Shown one piece after another: positions 1,370 to 21,180 of a stretch of 23,519 nucleotides of DNA. The position numbers were made by a program, and so were the translations under genes. How positions within the stretch are numbered: the first letter of the stretch is position 1; every line of letters begins with the position of its first letter. The notes under the pieces are model-generated. The model worked only from the letters and a program-made list of their open reading frames with translations, had not been told where the DNA came from and did not search any database. Origin of the DNA: a virus; the IMG/VR virus record IMGVR_UViG_3300034073_000285, positions 1 to 23,519 of that record, one strand, 5' to 3'.

Positions 1370-2059
1370 TTATTGATTTACAAATTCGCTCGCCATAGGA
1401 AATACTGTGGCGATAACCTTTGCACACTCTCGTGCAATTTTCATGTGTTCTAATTGTGTACCATTTGCGCTACGCAATTCAATGAAGTGAACCCAACTAC
1501 GTAGTGTTCCATTCATATAAAGACGAGATACAGTTAGTCCTTCTGGTAAAACTGCTCTTGCCTGTTCTTTTGCGATGCCATTTTTGATCGCCCATTCATA
1601 TTCTTTTTTCACAGTGAACAAGACACGCTTTTGTGCACGTTCCCATTCAATTGATAACATCTTTTGCGTTTCATTATTTGCATCTAGACTAACAGAGTTC
1701 TGACGATTTTTTATGTCCTGTAGTCTTGCTTCTCTCAACACAAAAGCGTCGTCCAACTCTGCTGTTGGATCTGCATATCGTTGTGAAAATTCTTGAAATG
1801 AAAAAGAGCGATGGCGTAGAATCTGACGAGCGATATCTCTAGTTGTTTCAATCTCGAGACAAGCACTCACCATTTCTAGTGGTGACCAGTGTTTGTGTTT
1901 AATAAGATAACGAATTAACTTCTCAGATGTTTCTGTGTTGAACTGATTGGATGGATTAGATACTCTGGCACAAAATGCTACTAACTCCTGAACATCTACT
2001 AAACCCTCATCATACATTTCACTACTTGCATTACTATAACTAATGAGTTTTACTTTCAC
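1370..2059 (-). CDS. thyX: Flavin-dependent thymidylate synthase ThyX
   Basis: Makes dTMP from dUMP using FAD, NADPH and methylene-tetrahydrofolate. Seen: the signature RHRSFSFQEFSQRY, matching RHRxxSxxExSxRY, at about residues 82-95, and a C-terminal segment with RSWVHFIELRS, typical of the family. The length of 229 residues is normal. I chose the GTG at 2059: a GGAG lies six bases upstream and the GTG overlaps the primase stop as GTGA. A frame extended to a TTG at 2071 adds four residues but would place the ribosome site inside the gene. It sits between primase and ribonucleotide reductase, so the operon pairs primer synthesis with nucleotide supply. No hydroxymethylase features are visible, so it is taken as an ordinary dTMP maker. 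Confidence 0.95.
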   Translation of the reverse strand: MKVKLISYSNASSEMYDEGLVDVQELVAFCARVSNPSNQFNTETSEKLIRYLIKHKHWSPLEMVSACLEIETTRDIARQILRHRSFSFQEFSQRYADPTAELDDAFVLREARLQDIKNRQNSVSLDANNETQKMLSIEWERAQKRVLFTVKKEYEWAIKNGIAKEQARAVLPEGLTVSRLYMNGTLRSWVHFIELRSANGTQLEHMKIARECAKVIATVFPMASEFVNQ

Positions 2060-3081
2060 TTCTTTCTCCAATTAATAAATTTCAACTTCGCTTCCATACC
2101 AGTATAGGTGTTTGTATTTATTAGTTCGATGATTTCAGCAGGTGACATTTCGCCATATAAAATCATATCATTAATATCTTTTTGCGTAACTGTATCAGGA
2201 TACATGCATACGGAATAACCTAAATCAATATACTTCTCTAACTGCTTAACAATATCTTTGTTTCTTGGTTCATTATCCATTACAATAGTAGCATTCGTCA
2301 AAAGTTTACGAATAGTTGGAGTATCAAAAGATGATCCAGATACTGCGATTGCATTTGGGAGAAACAAAGAATCTATTGGACCCTCTACCACATAAATTCG
2401 TTTTCCATAATCTACTCGATCAAGACCATAAATTTTTTCTTCTGTCTCGTCAACTTTAATGGTATAATACTTAGGATCTTCATCTCCATATGCTCTAGCC
2501 TGAAATGCAAAACACTTCCCTGCAGAAGTGAAGTATGGGATAATCATCCTTGGATGCTCACCTTCGATTGGTTCAACAAACTTTGGCGTCACAGAGTTAG
2601 TGAACTTTTTAAACTTTGGAGCAAAGTAAAGAAAATGCCATTTGTCACGTGGAATCTTACGCTTTAATACATACTTAACTGCAGGATGAGAGACATCTAA
2701 TTTATCAATTCTGTCTAAAGATGATAAGATGTCATCTTCAAGTAACTGTGGTGCTTCTTTTTCTGGAATTATTTTTGATACATCTTTGTGCGAGTTTTGT
2801 TTTACTGCGCCAGCTTTATATCGTTCAAGAACATACTCATCATACAATTGTGGATCAACATACTTGATAAGATTACCAATGTTAGTAGAATGACCGCAGT
2901 TGTGACACTTACAAAACAAATCAGTTTTTGCTCTGTAAATATATCCTCGTGCCTTTAACTTATTTTTAGATGAATCACCACACACTGGACAAGAATAGTT
3001 CCAGAGATAATCGTTTTTTTGTTTGAAATTTCGCAAGCGACTACCCAGTATTTGGGCATACTTTGCATCAATGTATAACAT
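2056..3081 (-). CDS. 61: DNA primase, T4 gp61-like
   Basis: Synthesises RNA primers for lagging-strand replication, working with the gp41 helicase encoded at 19500-20891. Seen: an N-terminal zinc-binding element with CPVC at residues 31-34 and CHNC at 59-62, followed by a basic linker, then a TOPRIM domain with VVEGPIDS (E233 to S238) and IVMDNEPRN (D269 region), the acidic metal-binding residues of DnaG-type primases. The length of 341 residues matches phage gp61. The ATG at 3081 has a GGAG five bases upstream and an approximately 18-base leader from a clear promoter. It is the first gene of the primase-thyX-nrdA operon and overlaps thyX by four bases. Confidence 0.92.
   Translation of the reverse strand: MLYIDAKYAQILGSRLRNFKQKNDYLWNYSCPVCGDSSKNKLKARGYIYRAKTDLFCKCHNCGHSTNIGNLIKYVDPQLYDEYVLERYKAGAVKQNSHKDVSKIIPEKEAPQLLEDDILSSLDRIDKLDVSHPAVKYVLKRKIPRDKWHFLYFAPKFKKFTNSVTPKFVEPIEGEHPRMIIPYFTSAGKCFAFQARAYGDEDPKYYTIKVDETEEKIYGLDRVDYGKRIYVVEGPIDSLFLPNAIAVSGSSFDTPTIRKLLTNATIVMDNEPRNKDIVKQLEKYIDLGYSVCMYPDTVTQKDINDMILYGEMSPAEIIELINTNTYTGMEAKLKFINWRKK
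2066..2069 (-). promoter_or_regulatory. Ribosome binding site deciding the thyX GTG start
   Basis: GGAG on the minus strand, six bases before the GTG at 2059 and inside the end of the primase gene. It favours the GTGA stop-start overlap over the upstream TTG. Confidence 0.7.
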
Positions 3082-3493: not shown

Positions 3494-3880
3494 TTACTTG
3501 CTCTCAACTTGTTTGTTAGATTCGTAATACTCTTTATATTTTACAATAATCGCTCTTTGATTGGCGATATAATTACGAAGTTCAGCCATGGTCAACGCAA
3601 GTTGTTCATAGCCATTATCAGTTATAGCAAATAATACTAAATCATCATTTTGTTCTTTTAATTTAGCAAATACTTGTTCAGCATTATCAGGTGTTATAAC
3701 CACCCAAGTCAATTCTCTTGCCTTAATTGGTTCTGGCAACTCTATATTTAGTTTTGTGCGCTCTTCAGCTTTAGTTTTAATTTCGATTGGTTTTACTTTA
3801 TCACCAAACAAATTAAAACTAGCACACCCACTAACGAGCAGGGGCAGTGTAATACTTATCAATAAGTGACGGACATTCAC
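3494..3880 (-). CDS. Outer-membrane lipoprotein, candidate o-spanin (Rz1-like)
   Basis: From the GTG at 3880 the 128-residue product has a compact lipoprotein signal: short basic n-region (NVRH), hydrophobic stretch LLISITLPLLVSG and lipobox VSGC with the lipidated cysteine at residue 19. The GTG has AGAGG six bases upstream; an ATG at 3907 in the same frame adds nine residues but has no good ribosome site and gives an unusually long n-region. The mature part holds a small proline-containing stretch (ELPEPIKA) and a C-terminal helix. The start lies inside the 3' end of the i-spanin-like gene in another frame, the overlapping layout typical of Rz/Rz1 pairs. Role inferred: disrupts the outer membrane at lysis. 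The mature chain is longer than lambda Rz1, so identity is not certain. Confidence 0.65.
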   Translation of the reverse strand: MNVRHLLISITLPLLVSGCASFNLFGDKVKPIEIKTKAEERTKLNIELPEPIKARELTWVVITPDNAEQVFAKLKEQNDDLVLFAITDNGYEQLALTMAELRNYIANQRAIIVKYKEYYESNKQVESK

Positions 3881-4349
3881 GATTAGCCTCTGTTGGTGAT
3901 TTTGCATTTTTCTCTGCGTCAGTTAATGGCGAACCAGAAGCGAGTTCTAAACAACGAAGTGCATTCTTACTTCCACGATTAACTAACTTTTCTATTAATT
4001 CTGGTTTTTCTGCTGCGACAACACCCAAATCTCTTTTATCAAATTTGTTTGCTAATGTGGCAACATCTTTCTTTTGTTTTTCGTTTTGTTCTTGTAATTC
4101 TTTATTTGTCTTTTGTATTAATTCTATATCAGCACGCATTTGATTCATCAATGCTTGTTGTGCTTCAATACCATCTTGTAGTTTTTTGTTATTAATTTCG
4201 CTGACTGCTAAATCTGCTCTAAGTCCAGTAACATACCACAAACCACCAGCAATTAATAATACAATTACTAGTGTGACAATTGCTTTAATGATCGTGCCAA
4301 TTGGTAATGGAAACATACTACGTTTAGGTGGTTTTAATTTCAGTCGCAT
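3831..4349 (-). CDS. Membrane-anchored coiled-coil protein, candidate i-spanin (Rz-like)
   Basis: 172 residues. Seen: a basic N-terminus, one membrane helix at about 19-41 (TIIKAIVTLVIVLLIAGGLW), then a long coiled coil at about 44-104 rich in Q, E and K, and a C-terminal periplasmic segment with two cysteines (C133, C159). That is the layout of inner-membrane spanin subunits, which span the periplasm and bind the o-spanin lipoprotein. The lipoprotein gene begins inside its 3' end, supporting the pairing. It overlaps the preceding gene by 26 bases. T4 carries the equivalent pair as pseT.3/pseT.2, but I claim no sequence identity to those, only architecture. Confidence 0.65.
   Translation of the reverse strand: MRLKLKPPKRSMFPLPIGTIIKAIVTLVIVLLIAGGLWYVTGLRADLAVSEINNKKLQDGIEAQQALMNQMRADIELIQKTNKELQEQNEKQKKDVATLANKFDKRDLGVVAAEKPELIEKLVNRGSKNALRCLELASGSPLTDAEKNAKSPTEANRECPSLIDKYYTAPAR
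3887..3891 (-). promoter_or_regulatory. Ribosome binding site deciding the o-spanin GTG start
   Basis: AGAGG on the minus strand, six bases before the GTG at 3880 and inside the coding end of the i-spanin-like gene. Confidence 0.55.
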
Positions 4350-5277: not shown

Positions 5278-5285
5278 TATTTATT
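5278..5285 (-). promoter_or_regulatory. Possible T4-type late promoter
   Basis: AATAAATA on the minus strand, one mismatch from the T4 late consensus TATAAATA. It overlaps the stop of the structural gene. RNA would begin just before the stem-loop at 5248-5268. Short motif in AT-rich DNA, so chance is possible. Confidence 0.35.
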
Positions 5286-5823
5286 AGGCTACTGTAATTG
5301 TTCCTGCAGCAGCTGCGATAGGTGCGCTGATAGCAACGGCAGAAGCAGTAGATGTTCCAGTGTCAACAATAGATCCGCTGTTTAGAGCGATAGATTGTGC
5401 AGCAATAGAAAGAACATCATCAACTGCGACAGTTCCTACACCACCTGCATATTCAAATACGATACGGTTTGTTCCTGAACCAGAATCATAGTATGCCTGT
5501 AAGTTAGCAAGAGAACCGCCACCAGCTTGGTCGTTGGCGATCAAGATGTATGGGTCACCAGAGATAGTAACCTTTTCGTTGTAAACAACTTCAACTTGAA
5601 TTGCACCAGTTCCGCCGTATGATGTTGTTAAAAAGTTAACAGCGTTGATTGTTGCGTTACCAAGAGAGGTTGACAATGTTCCAATCGCGCAAAGAATTTC
5701 TTCAGTGCCACTTGGTTGTTTGTAGACCCATCCTTTTGGAGTCGCAAAGGTGTTTGCCTTTTCTTCAGTTGAAAGCCACTTTGGCTTTGATTCATCAGTA
5801 GTAGAGTTTCCCCATAGTGCCAT
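5284..5823 (-). CDS. Virion structural protein (probable)
   Basis: 179 residues. The N-terminus MALWGNSTTDESKPKWLSTE and GWVYKQPSGTEEILCAIG resemble short structural proteins that T4-like marine phages carry near head and neck genes. The rest is rich in G, S, T, A and V with alternating beta-strand patterns and an alanine-rich C-terminus (AISAPIAAAAGTITVA), as in decoration or fibre-like beta proteins. A strong AAGGAG ribosome site precedes the ATG at 5823, suggesting high expression. A hairpin follows the gene. Assignment to structure rests on composition, family resemblance and neighbours; the exact location in the virion is unknown. Confidence 0.6.
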   Translation of the reverse strand: MALWGNSTTDESKPKWLSTEEKANTFATPKGWVYKQPSGTEEILCAIGTLSTSLGNATINAVNFLTTSYGGTGAIQVEVVYNEKVTISGDPYILIANDQAGGGSLANLQAYYDSGSGTNRIVFEYAGGVGTVAVDDVLSIAAQSIALNSGSIVDTGTSTASAVAISAPIAAAAGTITVA

Positions 5824-5838
5824 TTTATTTCTCCTTGT

Positions 5839-7710
5839 TTATTTAATTCTAGGACCACGAGCACCAGACTTTGCACCTGCTGGTCTACCACGTCCTCGTT
5901 TTTGAGTTTGATTATCATCTTTTGCATCGAAACCTTGTTCGTCTTTTTCACGCTCTTTTTTAGCGTATTCAGAACCATAGGTTCCAGAGTGACGATATAC
6001 GCCACCCTTTGGTTCATATTCGAGCATCATCATAAATTCTTTATAAGATAACATTTCTGTTTCCTCTTTCTTTGTTCCTCTGTCTGCTTCGAGTTTAGCA
6101 GCAATCGCCATTTCACGACGCTTTTCTTTGCTCTTACCTGCGAACTGTGGAGCATCAGATGCTTGGAAATCTTTAATAACATCACCCATCTTTGATGTGG
6201 TAAGATTAATTTTTTCATCTAACTCAACTTCTTCTTTGGCTAGACGATCAATTGCTTTATTAACACCATCTTGACGCTTCCAAGATTTTTTCTGATAATG
6301 ACCAGCTAATTTTAAGCCAGCATCTTTTAGATTTTTATTACGACGACCTTTAGCATCAAGTTCAAAATCCTTTGACATTTTTTGATTCATACGAGAATCG
6401 TGTGATGCTTTCTTAGCATAAGATGCAAGAGTAGATTTGTTCAACTCATCTAATTCTTCAGCTTCTTCCTCTACCATTCCAGTGCGACGTTTCTCACCTT
6501 CGATGTATGAGTGTAAGGATTCAACTTCACTCATCACTTTAGAAAGTTTATTCTGATACCATTCTTCAACTTCACCACCCATATCAATGTACTCTAGAAT
6601 TTCTTCTGCAGCATATTTGATAAAGTGTAGTTGAGTCTGAGCCATTTCCATTTTCTCAGAAGTCTCGTCTTCTTCCTTCATAACTTTCTTCATACCCATC
6701 TTGGCAAGATGTTTTGCAGTTGATGGACCAATACCGAATTTACCTGGAACTGCAGAAGGATTCTTCTTTGGTTTGTCAGGAGTAAATGGAAGATCGTCTT
6801 CTTTCTTCTTATCAGTTTCTTCTTTAGTTAAACGATTAACTGCTTTGTTGATACCGTGCATACGCTTAACTGCTTTCTTAACATCTGGCTTGGCATCATC
6901 GTAATCTGATTTCAGATGCTTGTCAGCAGTTTTTGCATCCATACCACGGCTGATGTTATGTGCATAGTCAGCACCAGCCAATGTTTTCTTGTGGGTAGCA
7001 TCAGCAGTTCTGTTAGCCATATCAACAGATGCCTTTGAAACATATGAGCCGAGAGTCTTCTTTGAGATCTCATCGATCTGCTCAACTTCTTCATTAGTTG
7101 GATGACCAACACGACCCTTTTTAGTAGCCATGTATTCTTTATACTCTTTAGTTCCTTTGATATATTTTCTATCTGGAACTGGAGCAACAGGTGCTTGCTC
7201 TTTCATTTCTTCTTTGTCATCTTTCTTTTCAGAGTTATCAAAGACAATTTCTTTGTGAGACTTGCGACCAGATGGACCAACTTTATAGTCAGCACGTGCC
7301 ATACGATCTGCTGCTTCATCAATCTCTGTTTCTTCTTTTAGATCAGAGTGTTTAACTTTGGTAGCACCACCATTGTTAGCACCTTGGAAATGAACTTCAT
7401 CACCTTTGCGGCGAGCAGTCCAATGTTTTCCATCTTCAGTTTTAAACTTGTGCTCTTGTTCGTCTTTCAATTTAGCAATTGCTTTGTGATGTTCTGGATG
7501 CAAAGGAATAGAAAAGTCTGCGCCATGGTGAACAGTTTTCATAGTTCCCCAAGAATACTTCTTGGTTTCTACTTTTGCTTCAGTTAGCTCTTCTGATTCT
7601 TCTTTTCTTAGAAGTTTAAAGTCGTGCGCATCGATTTTACCATTCTTATTCTTATCGATCTTGTGCTGCTTACCTTTAAGTGCTTCTAAAAATTGTGTAT
7701 AAGATTTCAT
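5839..7710 (-). CDS. Large charged modular internal-head-type protein
   Basis: 623 residues, very rich in K, E and D. Seen in order: a leader MKSYTQFLEA resembling a T4 capsid targeting sequence; a canonical EF-hand loop D19 to D30 (DKNKNGKIDAHD, ligands D, N, N, D, D); two related modules of about 80-90 residues (209-298 and 417-494), each beginning IDEI/LDEL-x-K-x-TL and ending NKAxxRLxKEE; a helical module at about 351-412; a second leader-like MLSYKEFMMMLE at 553-564; and a C-terminal AT-hook-like RGRGRPAG at 605-612. Modules are separated by acidic linkers containing (L/I)xE, the recognition type of the T4 prohead protease. Inference: a packaged or scaffold protein processed in the head. 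A CGGAG site and a late-promoter-like motif lie upstream. The precise role is unknown. Confidence 0.6.
   Translation of the reverse strand: MKSYTQFLEALKGKQHKIDKNKNGKIDAHDFKLLRKEESEELTEAKVETKKYSWGTMKTVHHGADFSIPLHPEHHKAIAKLKDEQEHKFKTEDGKHWTARRKGDEVHFQGANNGGATKVKHSDLKEETEIDEAADRMARADYKVGPSGRKSHKEIVFDNSEKKDDKEEMKEQAPVAPVPDRKYIKGTKEYKEYMATKKGRVGHPTNEEVEQIDEISKKTLGSYVSKASVDMANRTADATHKKTLAGADYAHNISRGMDAKTADKHLKSDYDDAKPDVKKAVKRMHGINKAVNRLTKEETDKKKEDDLPFTPDKPKKNPSAVPGKFGIGPSTAKHLAKMGMKKVMKEEDETSEKMEMAQTQLHFIKYAAEEILEYIDMGGEVEEWYQNKLSKVMSEVESLHSYIEGEKRRTGMVEEEAEELDELNKSTLASYAKKASHDSRMNQKMSKDFELDAKGRRNKNLKDAGLKLAGHYQKKSWKRQDGVNKAIDRLAKEEVELDEKINLTTSKMGDVIKDFQASDAPQFAGKSKEKRREMAIAAKLEADRGTKKEETEMLSYKEFMMMLEYEPKGGVYRHSGTYGSEYAKKEREKDEQGFDAKDDNQTQKRGRGRPAGAKSGARGPRIK
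6229..6462 (-). repeat. Second copy of the internal protein module
   Basis: Encodes residues 417-494 of the 623-residue protein: starts LDELNKSTLASYAKKASHD and ends RQDGVNKAIDRLAKEE. It matches the copy at 6817-7086 at both ends, while the centre differs in sequence and length. A diverged protein-level repeat, not a recent DNA duplication. Confidence 0.7.
6817..7086 (-). repeat. First copy of the internal protein module
   Basis: Encodes residues 209-298 of the 623-residue protein: starts VEQIDEISKKTLGSYVSKAS and ends RMHGINKAVNRLTKEE. A related start (EEQIDEVSSDLVKKA) also occurs in the 886-residue protein at 8488-11148. Confidence 0.7.
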
Positions 7711-7734
7711 AAACTGTCTCCGTTTTATTCTTAT

Positions 7735-7742
7735 TATTTATT
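7735..7742 (-). promoter_or_regulatory. Possible T4-type late promoter of the 623-residue gene
   Basis: AATAAATA on the minus strand in the 33-base gap, one mismatch from the T4 late consensus. RNA would start about 18 bases before the ATG at 7710, leaving room for the CGGAG ribosome site. Confidence 0.45.
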
Positions 7743-7743
7743 C

Positions 7744-8229
7744 TTAACTGCCAACTAGACTTTCATTGTCGTAAATTGAGAACTGCGGTGTTTCTACTTT
7801 AGAGTCCCAACCATGTTTACGTAATTTAACAATACAATGTCCTGGTCCATCGAAAGTGAAACGTAGATCTCTATTAGCATAAATTCGATCAACAAATCCA
7901 TGATGATCGAATTCATATTGCCCACCATTTATTAGATAATAGTGACTGTGAACAGTTCCTGCACCAGCATCTAAAATACGAGTGATATCAAGTTGTTTGT
8001 CTTTCTTAAGACCCCACCAGATGGCAGCAATGAATGCATGAGATCCAGCATATTGCGCAAAATGTCCATCTGTTTCTGGTGCATCATTTGTTCCAGCAAC
8101 ATATACTTGTGTTGGTGTCGTCAACCAAGTGCTTAAACTTAGATCTATAGATTCACCAGCAGACTCAGTAGTATATACTTTAATTACTGCTTCTGTCTCT
8201 GTATTTTTTAATACATGTATTTTAGACAT
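7744..8229 (-). CDS. Virion structural protein (probable)
   Basis: 161 residues. Beta-rich sequence with the segment IYANRDLRFTFDGPGHCIVK and the ending YDNESLVGS; an N-terminus SKIHVLKNTETEAVIKVY and a middle AFIAAIWWGLKKDKQLDI. I recognise this pattern from small structural or neck-region proteins of marine T4-like phages. There is no catalytic motif, membrane segment or signal peptide. It begins five bases after the stop of the 88-residue gene and is the last gene before a likely late promoter. The assignment is by family resemblance and location among late genes. Confidence 0.6.
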   Translation of the reverse strand: MSKIHVLKNTETEAVIKVYTTESAGESIDLSLSTWLTTPTQVYVAGTNDAPETDGHFAQYAGSHAFIAAIWWGLKKDKQLDITRILDAGAGTVHSHYYLINGGQYEFDHHGFVDRIYANRDLRFTFDGPGHCIVKLRKHGWDSKVETPQFSIYDNESLVGS

Positions 8230-8234
8230 TTAGA

Positions 8235-8501
8235 TCACCATGCCTTACAAGACCAATATCTTGCTTTATCTTTTGGACCAGGATTGTCGCAGTTGTGTCG
8301 TGCACGGAAAGACTTACGACGACCAGGAATATGTTTCTTGATAGTCATATTCTTATCGCCAAAGTTAACCTTGACAACATTACCATTTGCATTCTTAACA
8401 AAAACTTTAGACTTCTTTACGTCACCAGCCATAGGTTTATTTAAAGGAACTTCTCTTCCTTGATATTCTGCTTCGGCGAGCCACTCTTTAAAACGCAACA
8501 T
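8235..8501 (-). CDS. Small basic protein with capsid-targeting-like leader
   Basis: 88 residues. Seen: the leader MLRFKEWLAE followed by A, which fits the capsid-targeting pattern with an L-x-E cleavage site; then a compact domain with NVVKVNFGDKNMTIKKHIP and the ending SFRARHNCDNPGPKDKARYW plus SCKAW, with two cysteines and a histidine that could bind metal. The C-terminal domain occurs in many T4-like marine phages, often as a module of larger proteins; its function is unknown to me. Start overlaps the preceding gene by 14 bases. Inference: a small packaged protein processed after residue 10. Confidence 0.6.
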   Translation of the reverse strand: MLRFKEWLAEAEYQGREVPLNKPMAGDVKKSKVFVKNANGNVVKVNFGDKNMTIKKHIPGRRKSFRARHNCDNPGPKDKARYWSCKAW

Positions 8502-11148
8502 TGCTAGACCCCTTTGTCATTTTAGTATGAGACAATCTAGACTTCTCGATTTTTCTAACTCTTGGAGCAAGTCTCATCGCTAAACGATTGATGATTTGTT
8601 TTCTATTTTGAATAACTTTTTCAACTCTTTCTTTTTCAGCTACAGAGATTTTGCTTGGATCACGTCCACGCAACAAACGCTTCTTCATAAGTTTAATCGC
8701 TAAACGACGTGAACGCTTGTTAATTGTATTTGTATTCGAGTAACGCTTTAATGCAATTTTAGTTGCACGCTCACGCTTTGCTTTGGTGCGACGAATACGA
8801 AACTTTGCTTTCATACGTTCAACACGAGAAAGAACTTCCATTAATGTTTCTTCTTCTAATTGTTTTTCTTCTTCATCTTCTGGTAGTTCTTCGCCAGTTT
8901 CATCATCGACAACAGTTAGTTCCTCTTCATCATATAGATCATAGATGTCATCATCACTGATATGATTCATGAAGTGCTCAATTTCTTCTTCGGATGGATC
9001 TTCATCTGCAAAGATATGCTCTTCCCAGTTTTCTTCGTATTCAGAAACATCTACTGCACTTTCTTTCACACAGTTTGGAACATACTTGTTACCCTTTTTC
9101 TTAATACCAACCTGCTTATAACCTACCCAGCATGCTTCATAGATTTCTTCTTCCATGTCTTCACCAAACATTGCACGATATTTCTTTGTATGTTTTGATT
9201 CTTTAGTCTTTGCAGTAGCATCTCCAGGTGCTGGTTCATATGCTGATGGATCACTGTCACTTTTCTTATCCATCTTGTCCCAATGTGCTGCTCTTGCTTT
9301 TGCAGTTGCAGAAGATAAACCTGCTACATATTTCTTTGGAAGACCAGACTCTTTATCTTTTGGAACTTCTGGAAGTTTTGCTTCTTCAAGTTCTTCTTCC
9401 TCACGAAGATCTTTATCAGCACCATGATATGTGCCTTTACCCTTTGTGATGTAAGAATTTACACGAGCCATACCCCACTGCTGTGGAGTTGTTCCTGGAC
9501 GATGTCCAGAGTTCCATGCCGCAACACCACGTGCATAGACTTTCTTAAGAGTTGATAGTGACACACCAGACTTTTGCGCTTTTGCAGCTAAACCTGCTGA
9601 TGTAGATTCATCTAATTCTTCTGACAACTTCTTTGCCATGGTGTCAGATTCTTTCTGACCCTTCTCATATGCTTTTTTGACGAAACGATGTCCTTGATCA
9701 TCTTTACCTTTAGCAAAAGCAACATCTCTTGCTTTTTTAACTAGATCAGATGACACTTCATCAATTTGTTCTTCTCCAAGATGATACTTTACTTTGCGAC
9801 GACGTAAATTATCTTGACCACCTGGATGAACTAATGTGTGTCCAACTTCTGTTGGATCTGTAACTTTAACTGCATGTTCATAATCATGATCTGATTCATT
9901 GTCTTTTTTATTATCAGCCATCGAGTGAGCAGCATATTCATAATCTTGTTCTTGTTCTTGAACCTTTTGTAATTTCTTAAAGTCATTAAAGCGAAGAACG
10001 TCTTTGGCAAAATTATATTTTGATTTTTTATTTACTACTGGAGAGTCAGTTGTGACAGAGATCTTATCTGTACCATTTGGTTGTGTCACAGCTTCTTTTA
10101 ATTTTGTTGGCTTCAATGTAGCATCATACTGAATACCTTGTTCAGTTGCCAAGTTTAACATTTTATCAAGAATTGCCAGTGCTTCTGGGTTCAATGATTT
10201 AGTGCGCACACGACGTAAAGCCTGATTAATAAGCATGTCAGGATTTGATGATGTCTCTGCATTTTCAACACCAAGCATGGTCGCAATAATACGAGCGACC
10301 TTTAGTTTGTCATTCGGTTTTAATGTCTTGTCGGTTAGTGCTTCGTTCATATCTTTTTCTTCCGTTGGTTGCACATCATGAATCCATTTGGAAACTAATG
10401 CTCCAGTTTGTTCTTTTAGTAATAAATGATTTGAACCACGCTTAACAATTGTAAACTTTTCACCATCTGATTCTACAATATCACCTTCGTTAAAAATCTC
10501 TCCACGAAAGTATTTTTCACGAAGATCGTCTTTTACTAAAACAATCTGTTCTTTAATTGATTCAAGTCCCATACCCTCACGAATATCATTCATCAATCTT
10601 TTACCATCAATATCACGGACAGTAGATGGTAATCCTTTTTTGAATTCTGAATAATTACCTTTCACTGCAAGCGCACGCATTTTAGAAGCAGACATTCCAG
10701 AAGCATCATCAGCATCTGGATCTCTTTCACCTGCAGAGATAACTTCGATTGTATCAAAGTTAAACTCTTTACCATTATAGGTGTTTAGCAATCTTTTAAA
10801 TTCTGGAACACGATCGCTACCAGCAACCATAACGATATTCTTGTAACGCTTATTTAATTCTTTTGCTGCTTCTATGAAAGTACGAACATGTTCGTTTGCC
10901 GCAGCAAACTTAGTATTTCTGAACATAAGGTTTAAATACTTAACCTTTTTATCCACAGTTAGTGGATTCTTTTTAGAATCTTGGGATCTGGATGCGTAGA
11001 TTACGTGGTCAGCATTTTTCTGCTGAGCCAGTTTTTTGACAGCTTTGACAAGCAATTCGTGACCAATCGTCGGAGGATTAAATCTCCCGAACGCAAATAC
11101 TACAGTCTTAGAGGGTAACTCTTTAATTAGTTGTCTATAATCTTTCAT
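8488..11148 (-). CDS. Nucleotidyltransferase-headed modular protein, candidate internal head protein
   Basis: 886 residues from the ATG at 11148; in-frame ATG 11157 and TTG 11160 add three or four residues but break the leader. Seen in order: a leader MKDYRQLIKE matching the T4 capsid targeting pattern; a cytidylyltransferase/NMN-adenylyltransferase-like domain at about 12-195 with GRFNPPTIGH (21-30), AGSDRVPEF (about 109-117) and SASKMR (about 153-158); a low-complexity charged part; a module SGVSLSTLKKVYARGVAAWN to TKGKGTYHGADKDL (about 527-581); a lysine-rich module with KESGLPKKYVAGLS and SKHTKKYRAMFGED; a small CWVGYK to PNCVKE domain with two cysteines; a strongly acidic stretch (about 702-770); and a highly basic C-terminal domain with LLRGRDPSKISVAEKERVEK. 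Inference: packaged enzyme with processed linkers. The nucleotide substrate is unknown. The NTase domain is well supported, the rest by pattern only. Confidence 0.75.
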   Translation of the reverse strand: MKDYRQLIKELPSKTVVFAFGRFNPPTIGHELLVKAVKKLAQQKNADHVIYASRSQDSKKNPLTVDKKVKYLNLMFRNTKFAAANEHVRTFIEAAKELNKRYKNIVMVAGSDRVPEFKRLLNTYNGKEFNFDTIEVISAGERDPDADDASGMSASKMRALAVKGNYSEFKKGLPSTVRDIDGKRLMNDIREGMGLESIKEQIVLVKDDLREKYFRGEIFNEGDIVESDGEKFTIVKRGSNHLLLKEQTGALVSKWIHDVQPTEEKDMNEALTDKTLKPNDKLKVARIIATMLGVENAETSSNPDMLINQALRRVRTKSLNPEALAILDKMLNLATEQGIQYDATLKPTKLKEAVTQPNGTDKISVTTDSPVVNKKSKYNFAKDVLRFNDFKKLQKVQEQEQDYEYAAHSMADNKKDNESDHDYEHAVKVTDPTEVGHTLVHPGGQDNLRRRKVKYHLGEEQIDEVSSDLVKKARDVAFAKGKDDQGHRFVKKAYEKGQKESDTMAKKLSEELDESTSAGLAAKAQKSGVSLSTLKKVYARGVAAWNSGHRPGTTPQQWGMARVNSYITKGKGTYHGADKDLREEEELEEAKLPEVPKDKESGLPKKYVAGLSSATAKARAAHWDKMDKKSDSDPSAYEPAPGDATAKTKESKHTKKYRAMFGEDMEEEIYEACWVGYKQVGIKKKGNKYVPNCVKESAVDVSEYEENWEEHIFADEDPSEEEIEHFMNHISDDDIYDLYDEEELTVVDDETGEELPEDEEEKQLEEETLMEVLSRVERMKAKFRIRRTKAKRERATKIALKRYSNTNTINKRSRRLAIKLMKKRLLRGRDPSKISVAEKERVEKVIQNRKQIINRLAMRLAPRVRKIEKSRLSHTKMTKGSSNVAF

Positions 11149-11196
11149 TTGATCCATCAATCTAAAATAGTGCCTATTATTTAGGACTTTTGAAAC

Positions 11197-11433
11197 TTAC
11201 GCTAGGCTTAGCATTGCCTCCGCTGCAGCGCAAATCCAACGACAAGCGACTTCATCGGAAGCCAATTCTTGTTGTGCTCTTACTGAAGCGACCTCACTAA
11301 CCAAGAATTCATATTCTTCTCTAGAAAGATCCCCTTTAGCATAATCTTCTCTAAAAGCAACTAGATCTGCAGCTAACTTTCCTGCTGGACCTTCTTGTCC
11401 AGCCATTTCTCTTAATTCATTGAATAAATTCAT
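11197..11433 (-). CDS. Small acidic helical protein, unknown function
   Basis: 78 residues from the ATG at 11433, which overlaps the lipoprotein stop as ATGA and has GGAG six bases upstream; an ATG at 11445 would add four residues but contains that ribosome site. The sequence starts MNLFNELREMAGQEGPAGKL and is almost wholly helical and acidic, with DLSREEYEFLVSEV in the middle. Similar short proteins are common among T4-like marine phages. No motif reveals a function; a regulator or assembly chaperone are both possible. Confidence 0.65.
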   Translation of the reverse strand: MNLFNELREMAGQEGPAGKLAADLVAFREDYAKGDLSREEYEFLVSEVASVRAQQELASDEVACRWICAAAEAMLSLA

Positions 11434-11771
11434 CTTCCTCTCCATGCGTCTGCTACAGTGTCAACTCGGACACGATTAATTTTAAGAACTGACTCACAAA
11501 ACTTTTCATTACTAGATGTATTGGCTTTCTTTAAAGCAGACTCTAATTCTTCTATGGATTTCGCCTGTGGGTCTTTTCTAAGAGAAGCATAAACCTTTAG
11601 TTGCTCTACTTTACCAAATAATTTATTCCAATCTTTATCTTGACAATTTGTCTTATCAATGGCAACTTTAACTTGAACAAGATTATCGAACAATGCGCCA
11701 TCGTGCGGAATTGGTAGGATGAAAGAACATCCAGTTAACAGAACAGAAAATACTACAGCAGCTAGTTTCAT
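11430..11771 (-). CDS. Small lipoprotein, unknown function
   Basis: 113 residues from the ATG at 11771, which overlaps the stop of the ligase-like gene as ATGA and has AAGGA eight bases upstream; the in-frame ATG at 11780 abuts that site. Seen: a textbook lipoprotein signal MKLAAVVFSVLLTGC with the lipidated cysteine at residue 15. The mature part is about 98 residues, helical, with two further cysteines (in NCQDKDW and FCESVL) that could form a disulfide in the periplasm. The residue after the lipidated cysteine is S, so outer-membrane sorting is expected. Possible roles include superinfection exclusion or envelope protection late in infection, but nothing in the sequence decides this. Confidence 0.7.
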   Translation of the reverse strand: MKLAAVVFSVLLTGCSFILPIPHDGALFDNLVQVKVAIDKTNCQDKDWNKLFGKVEQLKVYASLRKDPQAKSIEELESALKKANTSSNEKFCESVLKINRVRVDTVADAWRGR

Positions 11772-12997
11772 CGTTGCCATCCTTTTATAATATCTGGTGA
11801 GAAGTTAGACTTACTAAACTCGAGGCGATCGACAATCTTCACAGCACCACCAGTTAAGTGGTCAATTGCCACAAATCCTTCCACACCAGTAACTTTGTAT
11901 CCATTAGTAGTGCGTAGGAATGTATTGATGTGTCCTGCTTCATTCATTTTATCCACAATCATCTGTTTTGCTGCAGCAAGAAGATTTACCAGATCAAAGA
12001 TCTTAATAATTTCTGCTTGGTCATGGTCAGTAAAAAACTTCAGAACACGTTTACGCTTTTCGTCTTTTCCTGCTTTGCCCTTTTCAGTCTTGAGTTTATC
12101 AATCTCTGCCTGATACTTATCGTGGATATAGTTAAATAATCCAACCACATGAGCATGAGTATTGGTAACTTGTAGTCCCTGACGAACTTTAGAGTTGTTA
12201 TAGGTATTTACTGCAGCATTTAACTCTTCATCATCTTTAATAGCGTTCAGAGTTGCTGCGGGGATTGACTGGAAAATCTTTCCAGCATTTGATAGGATGT
12301 TGGTCAACTGAGCAGTTTCTGCTGCAGTGAAAGTGGCAGTGCCAGAATAGTCTTTGTAGTTTGCATCATCCATCCAGACAGAAGGAACTTTTGCCATATG
12401 TGAAACAATAGATTGCCCGAATGATGCTTTCATTTCTTCGAAGGAACTACCAGTGTATGTTGTATGCCAAACCACGCCAATCTTTGCTTTCATAATTTGA
12501 GCAGCAAGTGGACTGTTTAGTGGAACTGCATACACGATAGTGTTTGGATGGAATGTCACATATTTAACTCCATCGATGGTGACGACTTGTTTGTCGTCAG
12601 TGAACATCAGGTCACCTTGATAAACTCCAGACTTGATTCCGAGTTTCTTGAACTCAGCGAGTGCTACTTTGAGTTTGGCAGCAAGATCACCTTGCGTGTC
12701 TGCATCAATCTCTGCTGGAGTTTTATAGACTTTGGGATTCTTATTGAAGACACCTTTCTTTGCTACAAAGAACTTGCCATCTGTTGGATCGATTCCAGCA
12801 AACACGGCAGGTGCACCATCCCATTTTACTGTTGCGGTAATTTTGTTTGTCGCATTACCAGCGAGCATGTCACGTAGGTCACGTAGAAAATTGATAGCCT
12901 TGCGTGTGCCATCTACACCACCATCGAATACCAAATCTTCCACATGGGTCATATGGGTATTCTTTTGTTCAACGATAAAACTCTTTAGACTCTTCAT
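11768..12997 (-). CDS. Ligase-fold nucleotidyltransferase-like protein with capsid-targeting-like leader
   Basis: 409 residues. Seen: the leader MKSLKSFIVE followed by Q (residues 1-11), fitting the capsid-targeting pattern with I-V-E as cleavage site; VKWDGAPAVF with K58 in a KxDG context, the motif I of covalent nucleotidyltransferases (DNA and RNA ligases); GVYQGDLMF at 124-132 in the place of motif III; VTFHPNTIVYAV; a long helical insert at about 230-360 with a lysine-rich stretch; VEGFV at 372-376 in the place of motif IV; and AVKIVDR at 385-391 with K387 in the place of motif V. The spacing between III and IV is much larger than in T4 ligases. Inference: an adenylating enzyme joining nucleic acid ends, or a domain that lost activity, packaged in the head. 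Preceded by a sigma70-like promoter. Confidence 0.6.
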   Translation of the reverse strand: MKSLKSFIVEQKNTHMTHVEDLVFDGGVDGTRKAINFLRDLRDMLAGNATNKITATVKWDGAPAVFAGIDPTDGKFFVAKKGVFNKNPKVYKTPAEIDADTQGDLAAKLKVALAEFKKLGIKSGVYQGDLMFTDDKQVVTIDGVKYVTFHPNTIVYAVPLNSPLAAQIMKAKIGVVWHTTYTGSSFEEMKASFGQSIVSHMAKVPSVWMDDANYKDYSGTATFTAAETAQLTNILSNAGKIFQSIPAATLNAIKDDEELNAAVNTYNNSKVRQGLQVTNTHAHVVGLFNYIHDKYQAEIDKLKTEKGKAGKDEKRKRVLKFFTDHDQAEIIKIFDLVNLLAAAKQMIVDKMNEAGHINTFLRTTNGYKVTGVEGFVAIDHLTGGAVKIVDRLEFSKSNFSPDIIKGWQR

Positions 12998-13009
12998 TTT
13001 TCTACTATT

Positions 13010-13038
13010 ATTATACCCTAATTTGCAATAAAAGACAA
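13010..13038 (-). promoter_or_regulatory. Sigma70-like promoter before the ligase-fold gene
   Basis: TTGTCT (13033-13038) and TATAAT (13010-13015) on the minus strand are exactly 17 bases apart in the 80-base gap. Expected start about 13003, leaving only about six bases before the ATG at 12997, so the RNA would be nearly leaderless. It lacks the TTGCTTTG start of the two other promoters. Confidence 0.45.
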
Positions 13039-13077
13039 CAATAACCCTACAGATTTGATGGGATTATAACCCCTGTA

Positions 13078-14022
13078 TTACCAAGGGTCTCCAGAGAGTT
13101 TCACGGAGGAAGCCATCTTTTCTGACTCGAATTTAAATCGAATCTTCATAATTTTCTTTTCCCCTGCCTTTACTCCAATGGATTCGTTACCGACTTTTTC
13201 TAGAGTCATAGGATATTTTCCGAGTGCCTCAAGTTTCTCGTTTTTCACTGGATCCATCACTGTGGCTTTGTATGGTGGTTTATTACCTTGTCCTGTTACC
13301 TTAATATATGGTGGACGTAAAATTTCTGCGTCCATCCAATCAGATAACAGATACTTCATTAATTCTTTTTGATTCATTCGATTAATGCGCACAAACAATT
13401 CATCACGCATTGCTGCTAGAATTTGTACACCAATCGCTTCAGTTTCTATTTTAACTTTTGGATTTGCACGAATGTATAATTTACGTTCTGTTGCACCAAC
13501 AGGTAGTCTGAATTTCTTAATTGTTTGGTCTAGTTGATTCTTATATTCATCTGCCAATGAGATATTTAAACTTCTGTCAACAGTACCAATACCTGGATTC
13601 TTAAAACCGATGTCGCCAGAACCTTGAGTTGCTTTGGCAGATAAACCAAGGAAACCTTTGGATGGACCATCTGAAAATTTCACTAGAATGTCAGTTGGGT
13701 TTTTCTTTTGATCAACTGGTTCACCAAAAGCGGATGTCATGGAGTTTGGTCTTGCTGTCCACCAGACTTGTTTCACTGGTGCTTTGTATCCATTTGCTTT
13801 AGCCCATTTAATAAATTCTGCAGCCATAGCAACTGCTTTACCTTGGGCGTCTTCTACTTCATGTGGTTGCGCTTGCTTCACTCGTTGTTCGTATTGGAGT
13901 TTAGCAGCATTGTCGAACCACTTATTTCCTGCGAGAACATAACCAGTGTAGATTTCATTAATGTCAGATAATACTGTATTCGCTGTAGCCATTTCTGTAA
14001 TATATTCTTTAAAAGTTTTCAT
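13078..14022 (-). CDS. PD-(D/E)XK nuclease-like protein with capsid-targeting-like leader
   Basis: 314 residues. Seen: the leader MKTFKEYITE, very close to the T4 internal protein III leader as I remember it (MKTYQEFIAE), with I-T-E as cleavage site; a helix with INEIYTGYVLAGNKWF that supplies E23; then PTDILVKFSD (D111) and GFLGLSAKATQGSG with S128-x-K130. E, D and (S/E)xK in this order and beta-strand setting resemble the PD-(D/E)XK fold of restriction-type nucleases, in which the second acid can be replaced by S. This fold call is an inference from few residues. The C-terminal part is basic. It starts six bases after the metallopeptidase gene, with no clear ribosome site, suggesting coupling. 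If right, it is an injected nuclease acting on host DNA. Confidence 0.5.
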   Translation of the reverse strand: MKTFKEYITEMATANTVLSDINEIYTGYVLAGNKWFDNAAKLQYEQRVKQAQPHEVEDAQGKAVAMAAEFIKWAKANGYKAPVKQVWWTARPNSMTSAFGEPVDQKKNPTDILVKFSDGPSKGFLGLSAKATQGSGDIGFKNPGIGTVDRSLNISLADEYKNQLDQTIKKFRLPVGATERKLYIRANPKVKIETEAIGVQILAAMRDELFVRINRMNQKELMKYLLSDWMDAEILRPPYIKVTGQGNKPPYKATVMDPVKNEKLEALGKYPMTLEKVGNESIGVKAGEKKIMKIRFKFESEKMASSVKLSGDPW

Positions 14023-15802: not shown

Positions 15803-16818
15803 GCGAACATCTCCAATCCTTCAAGTAGTGGTTCTTCATCATTAAACATCCATTCTAAATTTTCAAGTTTACCAGTTCTCAAAAATGAACTGAATCTTTC
15901 TTTATTAATACCACGTTTGTCATCCAAACGAAGATCGATAGTTTCATTTCTTGCTTGCCAAAGAACATCCCAATCTATTCCATACCATCCGTCTTTTTCG
16001 ACTTGCATAATTTCTTCAGCTTGTCGATCAAGATAGTAACCAAGATATCGACCATGATGTTCCCTAAAAATCTTTTTAAAAGAACAGAGGCAAGTTTCCA
16101 TAGTGAAGTAGTCAACAACATGGGCTAACTCTGGGAACCTGTTTCTCGTTTCCTCGATAATCTCTCTCGCTTGTGACTCAAGTCTCGCATAATCTGCTCT
16201 AGACAATTTTCTATCCAAATCGTGCTCTTGTGCAAGGGCATAAAGAAGTCCATTACGATGAGAGCGAGAGCCATCATAATCATCAAGCATGAGGCTAGTA
16301 GGAGTAATCCTAATCCCAGCAGTATGCTTAAGATGCTGAAGATAAAACCAAGTGGAATAACGACCAAACTTGTGCAACCCACTTTTAATGCTTGTCCACA
16401 AAGCTGTAAAGTTTGCCTCCTCATTGTCTCCATAATAATTCTCCAATGTTTCTCGTTGTGTTTTATTCCCAATAAATTTTTGATAAGACTCAAACATGGA
16501 GGGCAAATGACCTTTGTTCCACTTCGTGTCAGTCTGATAACGCAGTCTTTTATAATTAGCAGTATTCCATTGAGTAATACGATCTACAGTCGCCAATTCA
16601 AAGTCTGGAAACTCGTTTAAGAGAATCCAAGATGTTGGTGCATAATACGTATTACCATATAGCCAAGCAAACCAAAGACGTTGCTCATCATTATGTTCAT
16701 AACGCTTGTGTAGATAATTAGTCATCCACACTGCTGGGTCACAGTCATCATATTTTAATGACCATGCATACCAACGAATAAATGCTTCTCTACGATTTTC
16801 TGCTAAACGATAATCCAT
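15799..16818 (-). CDS. Helical protein resembling the 5-hydroxymethyluracil DNA kinase helical domain
   Basis: 339 residues. Seen: REAFIRWYAWSLKYDDCDPA near the N-terminus, then QRLWFAWLYGNTYYAPTSWI, LLNEFPDF and WNTANYKRLRYQTDTKWNKG, an aromatic-rich helical pattern that I associate with the family first described as alpha-glutamyl/putrescinyl-thymine pyrophosphorylase clade 2 and later linked to 5-hmdU DNA kinases. A P-loop is absent here, but a P-loop kinase is encoded two genes downstream, so the enzyme may be split. It has several cysteines (LCSF region) and ends PLLEGLEMFA, loosely like the clamp-binding tails of its neighbours. Its ATG overlaps the acetyltransferase stop as TAATG. Family assignment is from memory of the pattern and needs a profile search. 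Confidence 0.5.
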   Translation of the reverse strand: MDYRLAENRREAFIRWYAWSLKYDDCDPAVWMTNYLHKRYEHNDEQRLWFAWLYGNTYYAPTSWILLNEFPDFELATVDRITQWNTANYKRLRYQTDTKWNKGHLPSMFESYQKFIGNKTQRETLENYYGDNEEANFTALWTSIKSGLHKFGRYSTWFYLQHLKHTAGIRITPTSLMLDDYDGSRSHRNGLLYALAQEHDLDRKLSRADYARLESQAREIIEETRNRFPELAHVVDYFTMETCLCSFKKIFREHHGRYLGYYLDRQAEEIMQVEKDGWYGIDWDVLWQARNETIDLRLDDKRGINKERFSSFLRTGKLENLEWMFNDEEPLLEGLEMFA

Positions 16819-17459
16819 TATACTAAAAATTCTTCAAGTGATGGTTGTTCCATTAAAGCATCACGCAACCATGCTTTACCAACTGCATCAATTGCTGCTT
16901 GCGTTTTTGCTTTCTTCTTATCACCCCACTTATAGGATTCTAATCCCTCTGCGCGGAATTGATCTCTTGCCTTATAAGGTGGCAGAGCCGAGATTGGATT
17001 TGCGATAGCAGCAGCTCTAAATGCGAGTTGCTCATTACGAGTGGGGAATAGAATTTGGTCAGAGCGGAGACTACCTGTGGGGTCAACTGCCCAGAAGATG
17101 AGACCATTTCTGTAATGCCAAGTGACTGAAGTTGGCGTACAAGATATTTTAAGTCTTTTAGATTTTCGCTCTTCAACTGCGTACCTAATCCAAGATTCCC
17201 AACATTTGCTGGCGTATCCATTTCCTTCTTTTCCTTCCAATGTGACTATCTCATACAAATTGGCATATCCATCACGATTGTGTGTGGCAAAAATTAATGA
17301 AACAATTTCTCCATTAACTTCATACGCCATAGGTGGTGCTTTATCGTAATTGTGAAAACGATACCACAATGAATGTGCAGCTGATAAGAACTTTGTGTTC
17401 TTACCAGCTGGGCTGTTTTTAATTAGTTCTTCTACTTTTGTAGAATTAACAAAGTTCAT
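16818..17459 (-). CDS. GNAT-family N-acetyltransferase with clamp-binding-like tail
   Basis: 213 residues. Seen: strands YEVNGEIVSLIFAT and LYEIVTLEGKEGNGYA, the latter ending in the acetyl-CoA pyrophosphate loop (GxxGxGxA, G76 to A83), followed by helix KCWESWIRYAVEE, strand RLKISC and the motif-B-like WHYRNGLIFW. This is a GNAT core in about residues 30-130. The extra 80 residues have no known domain and end PSLEEFLV, nearly the same as the tail of the dioxygenase and of the DNA polymerase. Expected to move an acetyl group onto an amine; in this context the amine could be on a modified DNA base (inference). It overlaps the amidotransferase gene by 14 bases and shares TAATG with the next. 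Confidence 0.75.
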   Translation of the reverse strand: MNFVNSTKVEELIKNSPAGKNTKFLSAAHSLWYRFHNYDKAPPMAYEVNGEIVSLIFATHNRDGYANLYEIVTLEGKEGNGYASKCWESWIRYAVEERKSKRLKISCTPTSVTWHYRNGLIFWAVDPTGSLRSDQILFPTRNEQLAFRAAAIANPISALPPYKARDQFRAEGLESYKWGDKKKAKTQAAIDAVGKAWLRDALMEQPSLEEFLV

Positions 17460-18129
17460 AATGTTGATAATCTACTGCACTTGTAATATTTTTACGCTCA
17501 ACGCTCATTGCAAGACATGCATCAAATGTGACGTATGTATTGATTAAAAATTCTGTAGTAAACCCATCTACACCTGCTCGATAAGGAATATCTTTTGTAG
17601 AAGTAATTATACATCCATTATTGAAAGTTGTCAAATATAATGGACGCTTACCATTACGATAAGAACGAAGAGTTTTGTCTGCTCTTAACTCACAAACACC
17701 CATAGACATGTTTGGAAATTCTTGCAAAGGATTCTCAGAATGCAAAACTAACTCGCTATCGTTTTTAGTGATGCAATCATATCCATACAACTCTTTCCAA
17801 TTCTCTGGTAACTCTTGCGTGATAACTCCATTGTGAACAATACTTTTTGTATCATGAAAAAGTGGTTGATTGTATTCTAGATCGCTGGTGCTATATCGAC
17901 AATGAGCAATCATATACAAATTACCATCTTCGTTTAGATATGATTCAAAATCAAATGGAAACTTGTCAGCAGAGACTGGAAGTCTCTGTGTAACAATACT
18001 ATTGTTTTTAACATAAGAGATGCCAGTTGCATGCATTCCTCGAATCTTAGACTCGAGGATTATACGTTTGATCATCTCCAACTGATTAACAGATGGATTC
18101 TGAACGATTGTTCCTACGACAGCACACAT
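17446..18129 (-). CDS. Class II glutamine amidotransferase (Ntn hydrolase), stand-alone
   Basis: 227 residues. Seen: C2 directly after the initiator Met (MCAVVGTIVQ), to become the N-terminal nucleophile; RGMHATGISYV (30-40); HCRYST with R78 for the glutamine carboxylate; HNGVI with N100 and G101 forming the oxyanion hole; and NDSE with D124. Without the Met these lie close to the GlmS/PurF numbering (C1, R73, N98, G99, D123). Such domains release ammonia from glutamine and are normally fused to a synthase; here the domain stands alone, so the acceptor must be another protein, perhaps the neighbouring modification enzymes (inference). Its ATG overlaps the dioxygenase stop as TAATG. Confidence 0.88.
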   Translation of the reverse strand: MCAVVGTIVQNPSVNQLEMIKRIILESKIRGMHATGISYVKNNSIVTQRLPVSADKFPFDFESYLNEDGNLYMIAHCRYSTSDLEYNQPLFHDTKSIVHNGVITQELPENWKELYGYDCITKNDSELVLHSENPLQEFPNMSMGVCELRADKTLRSYRNGKRPLYLTTFNNGCIITSTKDIPYRAGVDGFTTEFLINTYVTFDACLAMSVERKNITSAVDYQHYELC

Positions 18130-20891: not shown

Positions 20892-21180
20892 CAACTCCGC
20901 CTGTATATACTAAATCGTTATTAGCAATACCTTGATGAATCAATTCAACAAGGATATCACCAATGTATTGTTCAAAAGGTTTTTTATCTGTCAGACCTTT
21001 GTCTGCATAATCTAAAATTTCGTATTCGAATTTAATGCTGACTTTATCATTTTGATCGTCTTCACCAAATTCTACTTTACCATAGGTATATACTATACCC
21101 TCAAACGCACCTTCTGTCAACTTAATTGCTTGGAGACCAGTTGATTTGCTCTCCATAACTACAATGGGTAGATTATTCAT
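20851..21180 (-). CDS. gp40-position protein (possible head vertex assembly chaperone)
   Basis: 109 residues between uvsX and the gp41 helicase, the place of gene 40 in T4. Seen: NLPIVVMESKSTGLQAIKLT, a strand pair FEGIVYTYGKVEFGEDDQND, KFEYEIL, and an acidic, disordered-looking C-terminus (GGVDENRTKDSEQSDS). T4 gp40 has been linked to head vertex assembly; similarity is claimed here from position and size with a pattern I recall only loosely. No catalytic motif. It overlaps uvsX by eight bases and gp41 by 41 bases, so all three are translationally coupled. Confidence 0.6.
   Translation of the reverse strand: MNNLPIVVMESKSTGLQAIKLTEGAFEGIVYTYGKVEFGEDDQNDKVSIKFEYEILDYADKGLTDKKPFEQYIGDILVELIHQGIANNDLVYTGGVDENRTKDSEQSDS

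Follow-up and report, generated by a model that had tools for sequence, protein, structure and literature searches.

The window analysed here is a 23,519-base stretch of viral DNA (IMGVR_UViG_3300034073_000285) that holds T4-type replication genes together with five minus-strand genes whose products begin with short leaders resembling the T4 capsid targeting sequence. All five leader genes lie in the interval bounded by genes for a helicase of the gp41 type (19500-20894) and a primase of the gp61 type (2056-3081). In the content and order of its open reading frames (ORFs) the window resembles Kyanoviridae, e.g. C48C1, Melnitz and HTVC008M, under gene names that are in part presumed by us, and a search with the whole window as query returned no near-identical phage from the phage collection. 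The three relatives have a comparable arrangement, in which DUF6267 is preceded by one gene and followed by a small gene or two, a cytidylyltransferase, a small gene and a large gene.

All five N-termini named in the first-pass annotation of this DNA are present on the minus strand and spelled as given there: MKTFKEYITE (P0001, 13993..14022), MKSLKSFIVE (P0002, 12968..12997), MKDYRQLIKE (P0003, 11119..11148), MLRFKEWLAE (P0004, 8472..8501) and the variant MKSYTQFLE-A, with Glu at position 9 (P0005, 7681..7710). The range assigned to the set, 7680-14022, encloses all leaders, but the P0005 gene extends beyond it, to 5839. The program-called ORF of P0003 begins with a TTG (11160). A start at ATG 11148 is supported by the relative G001, which has a stop codon immediately 5' of its MKDYRQLIKE. 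The suggestion that MKSYTQFLEA is a variant leader fits a nine-residue form found in relatives, e.g. MKKFSEIIE-A, MKRFKQFAE-A and MLRFKQFSE-A. A sixth leader candidate in the window, MNLFNELRE, lies at 11433.

In T4, the first ten residues of IPIII are enough for packaging, residues 4 and 7 serving targeting and residues 8 and 10 processing, and gp21 cleaves after L/I-x-E (PMC9026906). A T4-style ten-residue leader cut by gp21 after (I/L)xE, as proposed in the first-pass annotation, agrees with this account, and the positions that are experimentally important in IPIII (4, 7, 8 and 10) are those conserved here. Hydrophobic or aromatic residues at positions 4 and 7 combined with (I/L)xE at positions 8-10 were found in 4 of the 27 window genes, the fifth leader gene having the nine-residue form. 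The pattern defined previously, M-[KL]-x-[FYLW]-x-x-[FYLW]-[IL]-x-E, likewise matched four N-termini among the 27 gene starts, three of which are off by at least one codon, none of these in a leader gene. Of 9,110 internal ATGs from 12 related phage genomes, each 40 residues or more into an ORF, only 2 matched the same pattern, and when the residues of the 27 N-termini were shuffled 200,000 times, two or more matches never arose. The frequency of the leader in the window genes is far above chance.

As the pattern was derived from these same genes, independent tests weigh more. Its DNA version recovered ipII, ipIII and 61.1 from T4 (reversed control, 0), and a slightly broader pattern applied to the T4 ORFs returned these three and one chance ORF of 41 residues. 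T4 gene 61.1 (NC_000866, 18966-19130) starts with MKTFKEFIKE, adjoins gp61 and occupies the same gp61-gp41 interval as the window cluster; it may be an unrecognised packaged protein. Matches at internal Met residues, e.g. in G001, G003 and G004 (MKLFKEYIKENPEIWN and alike), lay deep within a longer ORF and were discarded by eye as false positives.

A scan of viral contigs with the leader only yielded at least 120 stretches, and the reversed pattern yielded none; the pattern used fixed Lys2, Phe4, Lys5 and Ala11, and these positions are no evidence. Of the 86 matches in the 80 listed loci, 84 had a stop no more than 34 codons upstream, as true gene starts have. The bodies behind the leaders formed 46 families among the 83 listed proteins of at least 45 residues. 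When 20 of the 46 family representatives were compared with Pfam, four exceeded the cut-off (adenylate kinase, DUF2608 with HAD phosphatase matches, glucosaminidase and S-adenosylmethionine (SAM) lyase), one RNA ligase match fell just under it and 15 had no match. SAM lyase is an anti-restriction-type activity. PADLOC found nothing in the five window proteins and weak kinase matches for the adenylate-kinase-like cargo. The bodies in the window are also unrelated to one another in the Pfam and PHROG comparisons, as had been proposed, and the leader is portable between bodies. In one further leader-bearing gene (L380:3736-4149), the leader is followed by YHGTPESSADKIKKSGF, which is reminiscent of ADP-ribosyltransferases and had no Pfam match.

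An S77 protease, the predicted cleaving enzyme, was present in 7 of 18 leader-first records, many of which are short fragments, and S77 prohead protease together with Gp23 was present in all 14 T4-type records tested, T4 included. Moreover, gp23 of the five relatives examined carries [ILMV]xE at about residue 51-57, the expected end of the propeptide, in each case, and LFE-A in two.

Published mass spectrometry places leader-bearing homologues in purified virions of relatives. For S-CREM2, 52 virion proteins are listed (PMC10665884, Table 3). A scan of all start codons of this phage gave five leader genes, namely ORF6 (SAM hydrolase), ORF13, ORF14 (kinase), ORF154 (cytidylyltransferase) and gp175, and the first four are in the virion list as published (hypergeometric 0.0115, 221 annotated features). 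A stricter DNA pattern, applied when the N-terminus of ORF154 had already been seen and that of ORF6 had not, picked out just ORF154 and ORF6, each of them a listed virion protein, and nothing when reversed. ORF136 (MQTFSMFFSE) and ORF12 (leader-like near residue 17) fail the pattern and were not counted. The proteins detected in virions include the cytidylyltransferase for S-CREM2 (PMC10665884), S-SCSM1 (PMC9602691), S-SZBM1 (PMC9146016) and S-SM1 (PMC3037559). In all four phages checked with such detection the protein has a leader: MKNFSSFLTE in S-CREM2, MKSFLQFLKE in S-SCSM1, MKKFSAFLNE in S-SM1 and the nine-residue MRFRQFIIE in S-SZBM1. The S-PM2 cytidylyltransferase was reported as undetected in virions (PMC3037559), and its domain has no leader; the annotated gene continues from a DUF6267-like stretch, the record splits DUF6267 in two and the start is unsure. 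Another virion-annotated protein of S-SCSM1, the 69-residue product of gene 93 (L369, 12127-12336), has a leader-like C-terminal end, RTFKEFLEYIE, which perhaps resembles, by analogy, the C-terminal propeptide of T4 Alt.

P0001 (13078..14022, minus strand, 314 residues) has a PD-(D/E)XK nuclease-like body with invariant NPTD and GLSAKAT. Right behind its leader comes MATANTVLSDINEI, with which leaderless homologues begin. Among the best 80 of 100 homologues, 15 bear a leader, and the start of the other 65 falls at or close to the MTANTVLSDINEI stretch. The window leader precedes an intact MATANTVLS, and that of L294-L304 stands in place of the Met. A tree built from 58 distinct bodies requires three leader changes, forced by well-supported branches. 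Tiny frames (MKKFE-stop, MKQFE-stop and a partly seen MKFKQYMSK-like one) lie just 5' of leaderless homologues in L278, L279 and L288-L291 and could be decayed leaders. The nuclease-like character assigned by the first-pass annotation gains some support from a weak fold match to HinP1I (Z 6.4, 102 aligned residues, 3.8 Å), and D111 and S128-A-K130 are invariant and would correspond to the D...(E/S)xK of PD-(D/E)XK enzymes. At a threshold of 0.05 neither Pfam nor PHROG gave a family for P0001, and no NCBIfam score came near a curated cut-off.

P0002 (11768..12997, minus strand, 409 residues) is a DUF6267 protein (359 bits in Pfam, curated cut-off 27). The leader pattern is retained in 74 of 80 loci, these being the best 80 of 231, at about 67% identity or more, with one search peptide spanning the end of the leader. 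In 19 homologues Glu10 is invariant, and the other leader residues vary. The protein carries KWDG (58-61), EGFV (373-376) and VKI (386-388), which we take to be motifs of the covalent nucleotidyltransferase (DNA/RNA ligase) superfamily; K58, D60, G61, E373, G374, V376, V386 and K387 are invariant in the 19 sequences, giving the KxDG, EGxV and VK series. The earlier idea of a ligase-like protein thus has some support from its motifs, and the fold resemblance is weak: the best Z, 5.9, was to T4 RNA ligase 2 (148 aligned residues, 4.8 Å), and many ligases are listed, but unrelated helical proteins reach similar Z. A profile of P0002 gave nothing convincing against solved structures, and Foldseek gave no match at E < 0.001 for the models of P0001 and P0002.

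P0003 (8488..11148, minus strand, 886 residues) has an NMNAT/cytidylyltransferase-like head (27.9 bits against Pfam CTP_transf_like, curated cut-off 21; no NCBIfam cut-off reached) and, behind it, a string of modules with (I/L)xE between them. A DUF5824-like module (9403..9606, residues 515-582) directly follows LDE, an ACWxGYK module (9055..9135, residues 672-698) directly follows IYE, and a basic C-terminal module (8491..8835, residues 772-886) directly follows LME, all on the minus strand. In C48C1, the DUF5824-like module is a free gene starting with MITFKKYLEE (64% identity across 73 residues). Its counterpart of the basic module, likewise a free gene, starts with MLSFKQFVSE (28% across 108), and the final Glu of that leader pairs with the Glu of LME in the alignment. 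The basic Melnitz protein Mel_14525 gave no alignment to the P0003 tail at 0.01. P0004 (8235..8501, minus strand, 88 residues) is a single phrog_7595 module, which in relatives occurs either with its own leader or C-terminally behind (I/L)xE-A. P0005 (5839..7710, minus strand, 623 residues) is modular; its modules at residues 45, 133, 215, 423 and 500 are each preceded by (I/L)xE. Both large proteins, P0003 and P0005, are strings of modules.

A survey of 23,207 translated ORFs gave the contexts of these modules. The contexts were thinned to about 70% identity across 16 residues, and rows in which the match started late in the model or too close to the ORF start were dropped before counting. 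The motif [ILMV]xE was found at a fixed place before 19 of 19 distinct contexts of module A (16/17 and 3/3 for two further models from this family) and before 66 of 82 contexts of the P0004 module (maximum of 11 in 500 shuffles). It preceded module B in 17/35, F in 10/19, G in 13/25 and I in 7/11 contexts, and the fixed-offset (I/L)xE test was weak for modules C (5/18) and D (10/43). Where a module stood first in its ORF, the preceding stretch was often a leader. The total number of (I/L)xE sites was mildly above shuffles in the P0003 tail (12 vs. 6.7) and not above them in P0005 (7 vs. 5.6). These context data favour chains cut by a protease, although (I/L)xE could instead belong to the module itself. 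P0003 and P0005 look like chains of cleavable modules, a reading that goes beyond the first-pass annotation. In its full form they would be capsid-targeted polyproteins, one leader importing a string of modules that the prohead protease would cut at each (I/L)xE, so that one gene would give a cocktail of small packaged proteins. Modules would swap between a leader of their own and a chain position behind a cut site, as a plug-in head-loading system common to many marine phages; we hold this proposal to be evenly balanced between true and false.

Taken together, the window cluster is very probably a locus for packaged proteins in a marine phage of T4 type (Kyanoviridae-like), in which the leaders act as T4 capsid targeting sequences and the bodies are kept in the head and delivered at infection. 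Docking into the prohead core would depend on leader positions 4 and 7, and cleavage by the S77 prohead protease would follow after (I/L)xE, at position 10 or, in the variant leader, at position 9. After this cut the bodies (P0001, nuclease-like; P0002, ligase-like; the NMNAT-like head of P0003; the small module P0004; modular P0005) would remain in the head with the DNA and enter the host at infection. The virus probably ships an enzyme kit alongside its genome. Head targeting, the core of the original prediction, is well supported by the match to T4 leaders, the S77 protease in T4-type records, the virion detection of homologues and the portability of the leader. For the phage of the window we infer packaging, cleavage and injection, with putative roles in countering restriction and adjusting nicotinamide adenine dinucleotide (NAD) and nucleic acids during the first minutes of infection. 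In T4, Ip1-3 are injected and inhibit type IV restriction enzymes (PMC12373910). It is a reasonable guess that the cargo serves early protection and takeover, acting on restriction, NAD and nucleic-acid ends.

Several observations weigh against this interpretation. The window phage is known here from genes alone, on a 23.5-kb metagenomic contig without head genes, and Syn9, HTVC008M and Melnitz have few or zero strict leaders. The fifth leader gene of S-CREM2, gp175, is absent from the virion list as published, and ORF13 was detected by one peptide only. Virion proteins without a leader come from the same locus, e.g. S-CREM2 ORF155, 156 and 160, S-SCSM1 ORF89 and 90 and S-SZBM1_139, and the virion mass spectrometry, as published for these relatives, gives no N-termini. 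The authors of the S-CREM2 (PMC10665884) and S-SCSM1 (PMC9602691) studies noted that such proteins might be co-purified; the leader would be a reason to doubt such carry-over. Moreover, the P0001 body appears to work unpackaged as well, as 65 of the 80 homologues have no leader, and five (I/L)xE sites lie within the head region of P0003, where an unselective protease would cut.

An alternative that we consider unlikely is that the leader does target the prohead core, but that the proteins serve head assembly as scaffold or DNA-condensing components, with little or nothing active being injected. Many modules are charged and of low complexity, T4 IPIII influences head assembly too, and the T4 core proteins gp22 and gp67 are cut to fragments (PMC9026906). 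Such a role is difficult to reconcile with bodies as diverse as 46 families among 83 listed proteins, with the several enzymes that can be recognised among leader-bearing bodies (adenylate kinase, SAM lyase, HAD phosphatase-like, NMNAT-like) and with the injected T4 Ip1-3. Very improbable is a shared amphipathic N-terminus with another role, in membrane or polymerase recruitment or in translation initiation, whose likeness to T4 would be convergent. The position of the genes among replication genes, from gp41 to gp61, and the many leaderless P0001 homologues would suit it; the invariance of Glu10 beside variable residues in P0002 homologues, the overlap of leader genes with the S-CREM2 virion list and the leader type that 61.1, in the same interval of T4, shares with ipII and ipIII argue against it. 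Chance, or joint inheritance of the N-termini through duplication of neighbouring genes, can practically be dismissed, given the unrelated bodies, the three leader changes on the single P0001 body and the near absence of matches in shuffles, internal ATGs and the reversed collection scan.

The reading of the cluster as packaged cargo has a close parallel in T4 IPI, IPII and IPIII, which share the ten-residue leader, aromatic residues at positions 4 and 7, (I/L)xE at positions 8-10, diverse bodies and the S77 protease (here in relatives). Unlike them, the window cargo includes larger enzyme-like and modular proteins and sits between gp41 and gp61, and its leader positions 2, 4 and 7 are looser, with Leu and Trp allowed. 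T4 61.1 is similar in leader and location but has 54 residues and is recorded as a hypothetical protein. T4 Alt, a packaged ADP-ribosyltransferase, is also an enzyme processed by gp21 (PMC9026906), but its propeptide has seven residues and no Alt homologue was seen here. The virion NMNAT/cytidylyltransferase, SAM hydrolase and kinase of S-CREM2, S-SCSM1, S-SM1 and S-SZBM1 include the homologous leader-bearing cytidylyltransferase, and the accessible parts of those papers give no packaging signal for them. Ejection proteins of the SPN3US type, likened here by description, are also head-packaged cargo processed by a prohead protease but belong to another phage group.

The targeting principle is already known from T4; the multi-enzyme, modular cargo looks new. 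In titles and the beginnings of abstracts we found no application of capsid targeting to these marine phages, although subscription papers were mostly outside this coverage and an earlier mention is possible; the sole co-mention of capsid targeting and cyanophage in this literature was a T4 review with "cyanophage" in a reference title. For cyanophage virion enzymes such as NMNAT and SAM hydrolase, the papers leave undecided whether they are cargo or contaminants, and a readable ten-residue tag would tell packaged proteins from sequence alone, in one of the sea's most abundant phage groups. The tag also flags the injected proteins likeliest to meet host defences first, and the leader-first set contains a SAM lyase. 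The scheme of a tag plus a cut site may be of use for loading chosen proteins into phage heads.

The nine-base sequence TAAATAATA, presumably a late promoter by analogy with T4, as is TAAATA, occurs exactly three times in the window, every time 13-35 bases upstream of a leader gene: just 5' of P0001 (14027..14035), P0003 (11175..11183) and P0005 (7732..7740), all on the minus strand. No TAAATAATA lies upstream of P0002 and P0004. With one mismatch it was observed 19 times (16 expected). Plain TAAATA shows no enrichment there (21 observed, 24 expected in the window), and therefore the promoter argument stands on the longer TAAATAATA alone. TAAATA also precedes gp23 in some relatives, and in the window it lies 22 bases upstream of a phrog_11617 gene (5284-5823, minus strand). 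The protein of this gene has the N-terminus MALWGN, and S-SCSM1_95, with the same start, is annotated as a virion protein.

Elsewhere on the minus strand, overlapping genes at 3494-3907 and 3831-4349 encode a coiled protein with a membrane anchor and a small protein similar to lipoproteins, reminiscent of a pair of overlapping spanin genes. The proteins encoded at 22845-23519, 18129-19490 and 16818-17459 (minus strand) end with SLEDFFG, SLEEFFG and SLEEFLV, respectively, the first being the C-terminus of the polymerase. These ends resemble a sliding-clamp-binding peptide and possibly mark a set of clamp-recruited proteins.

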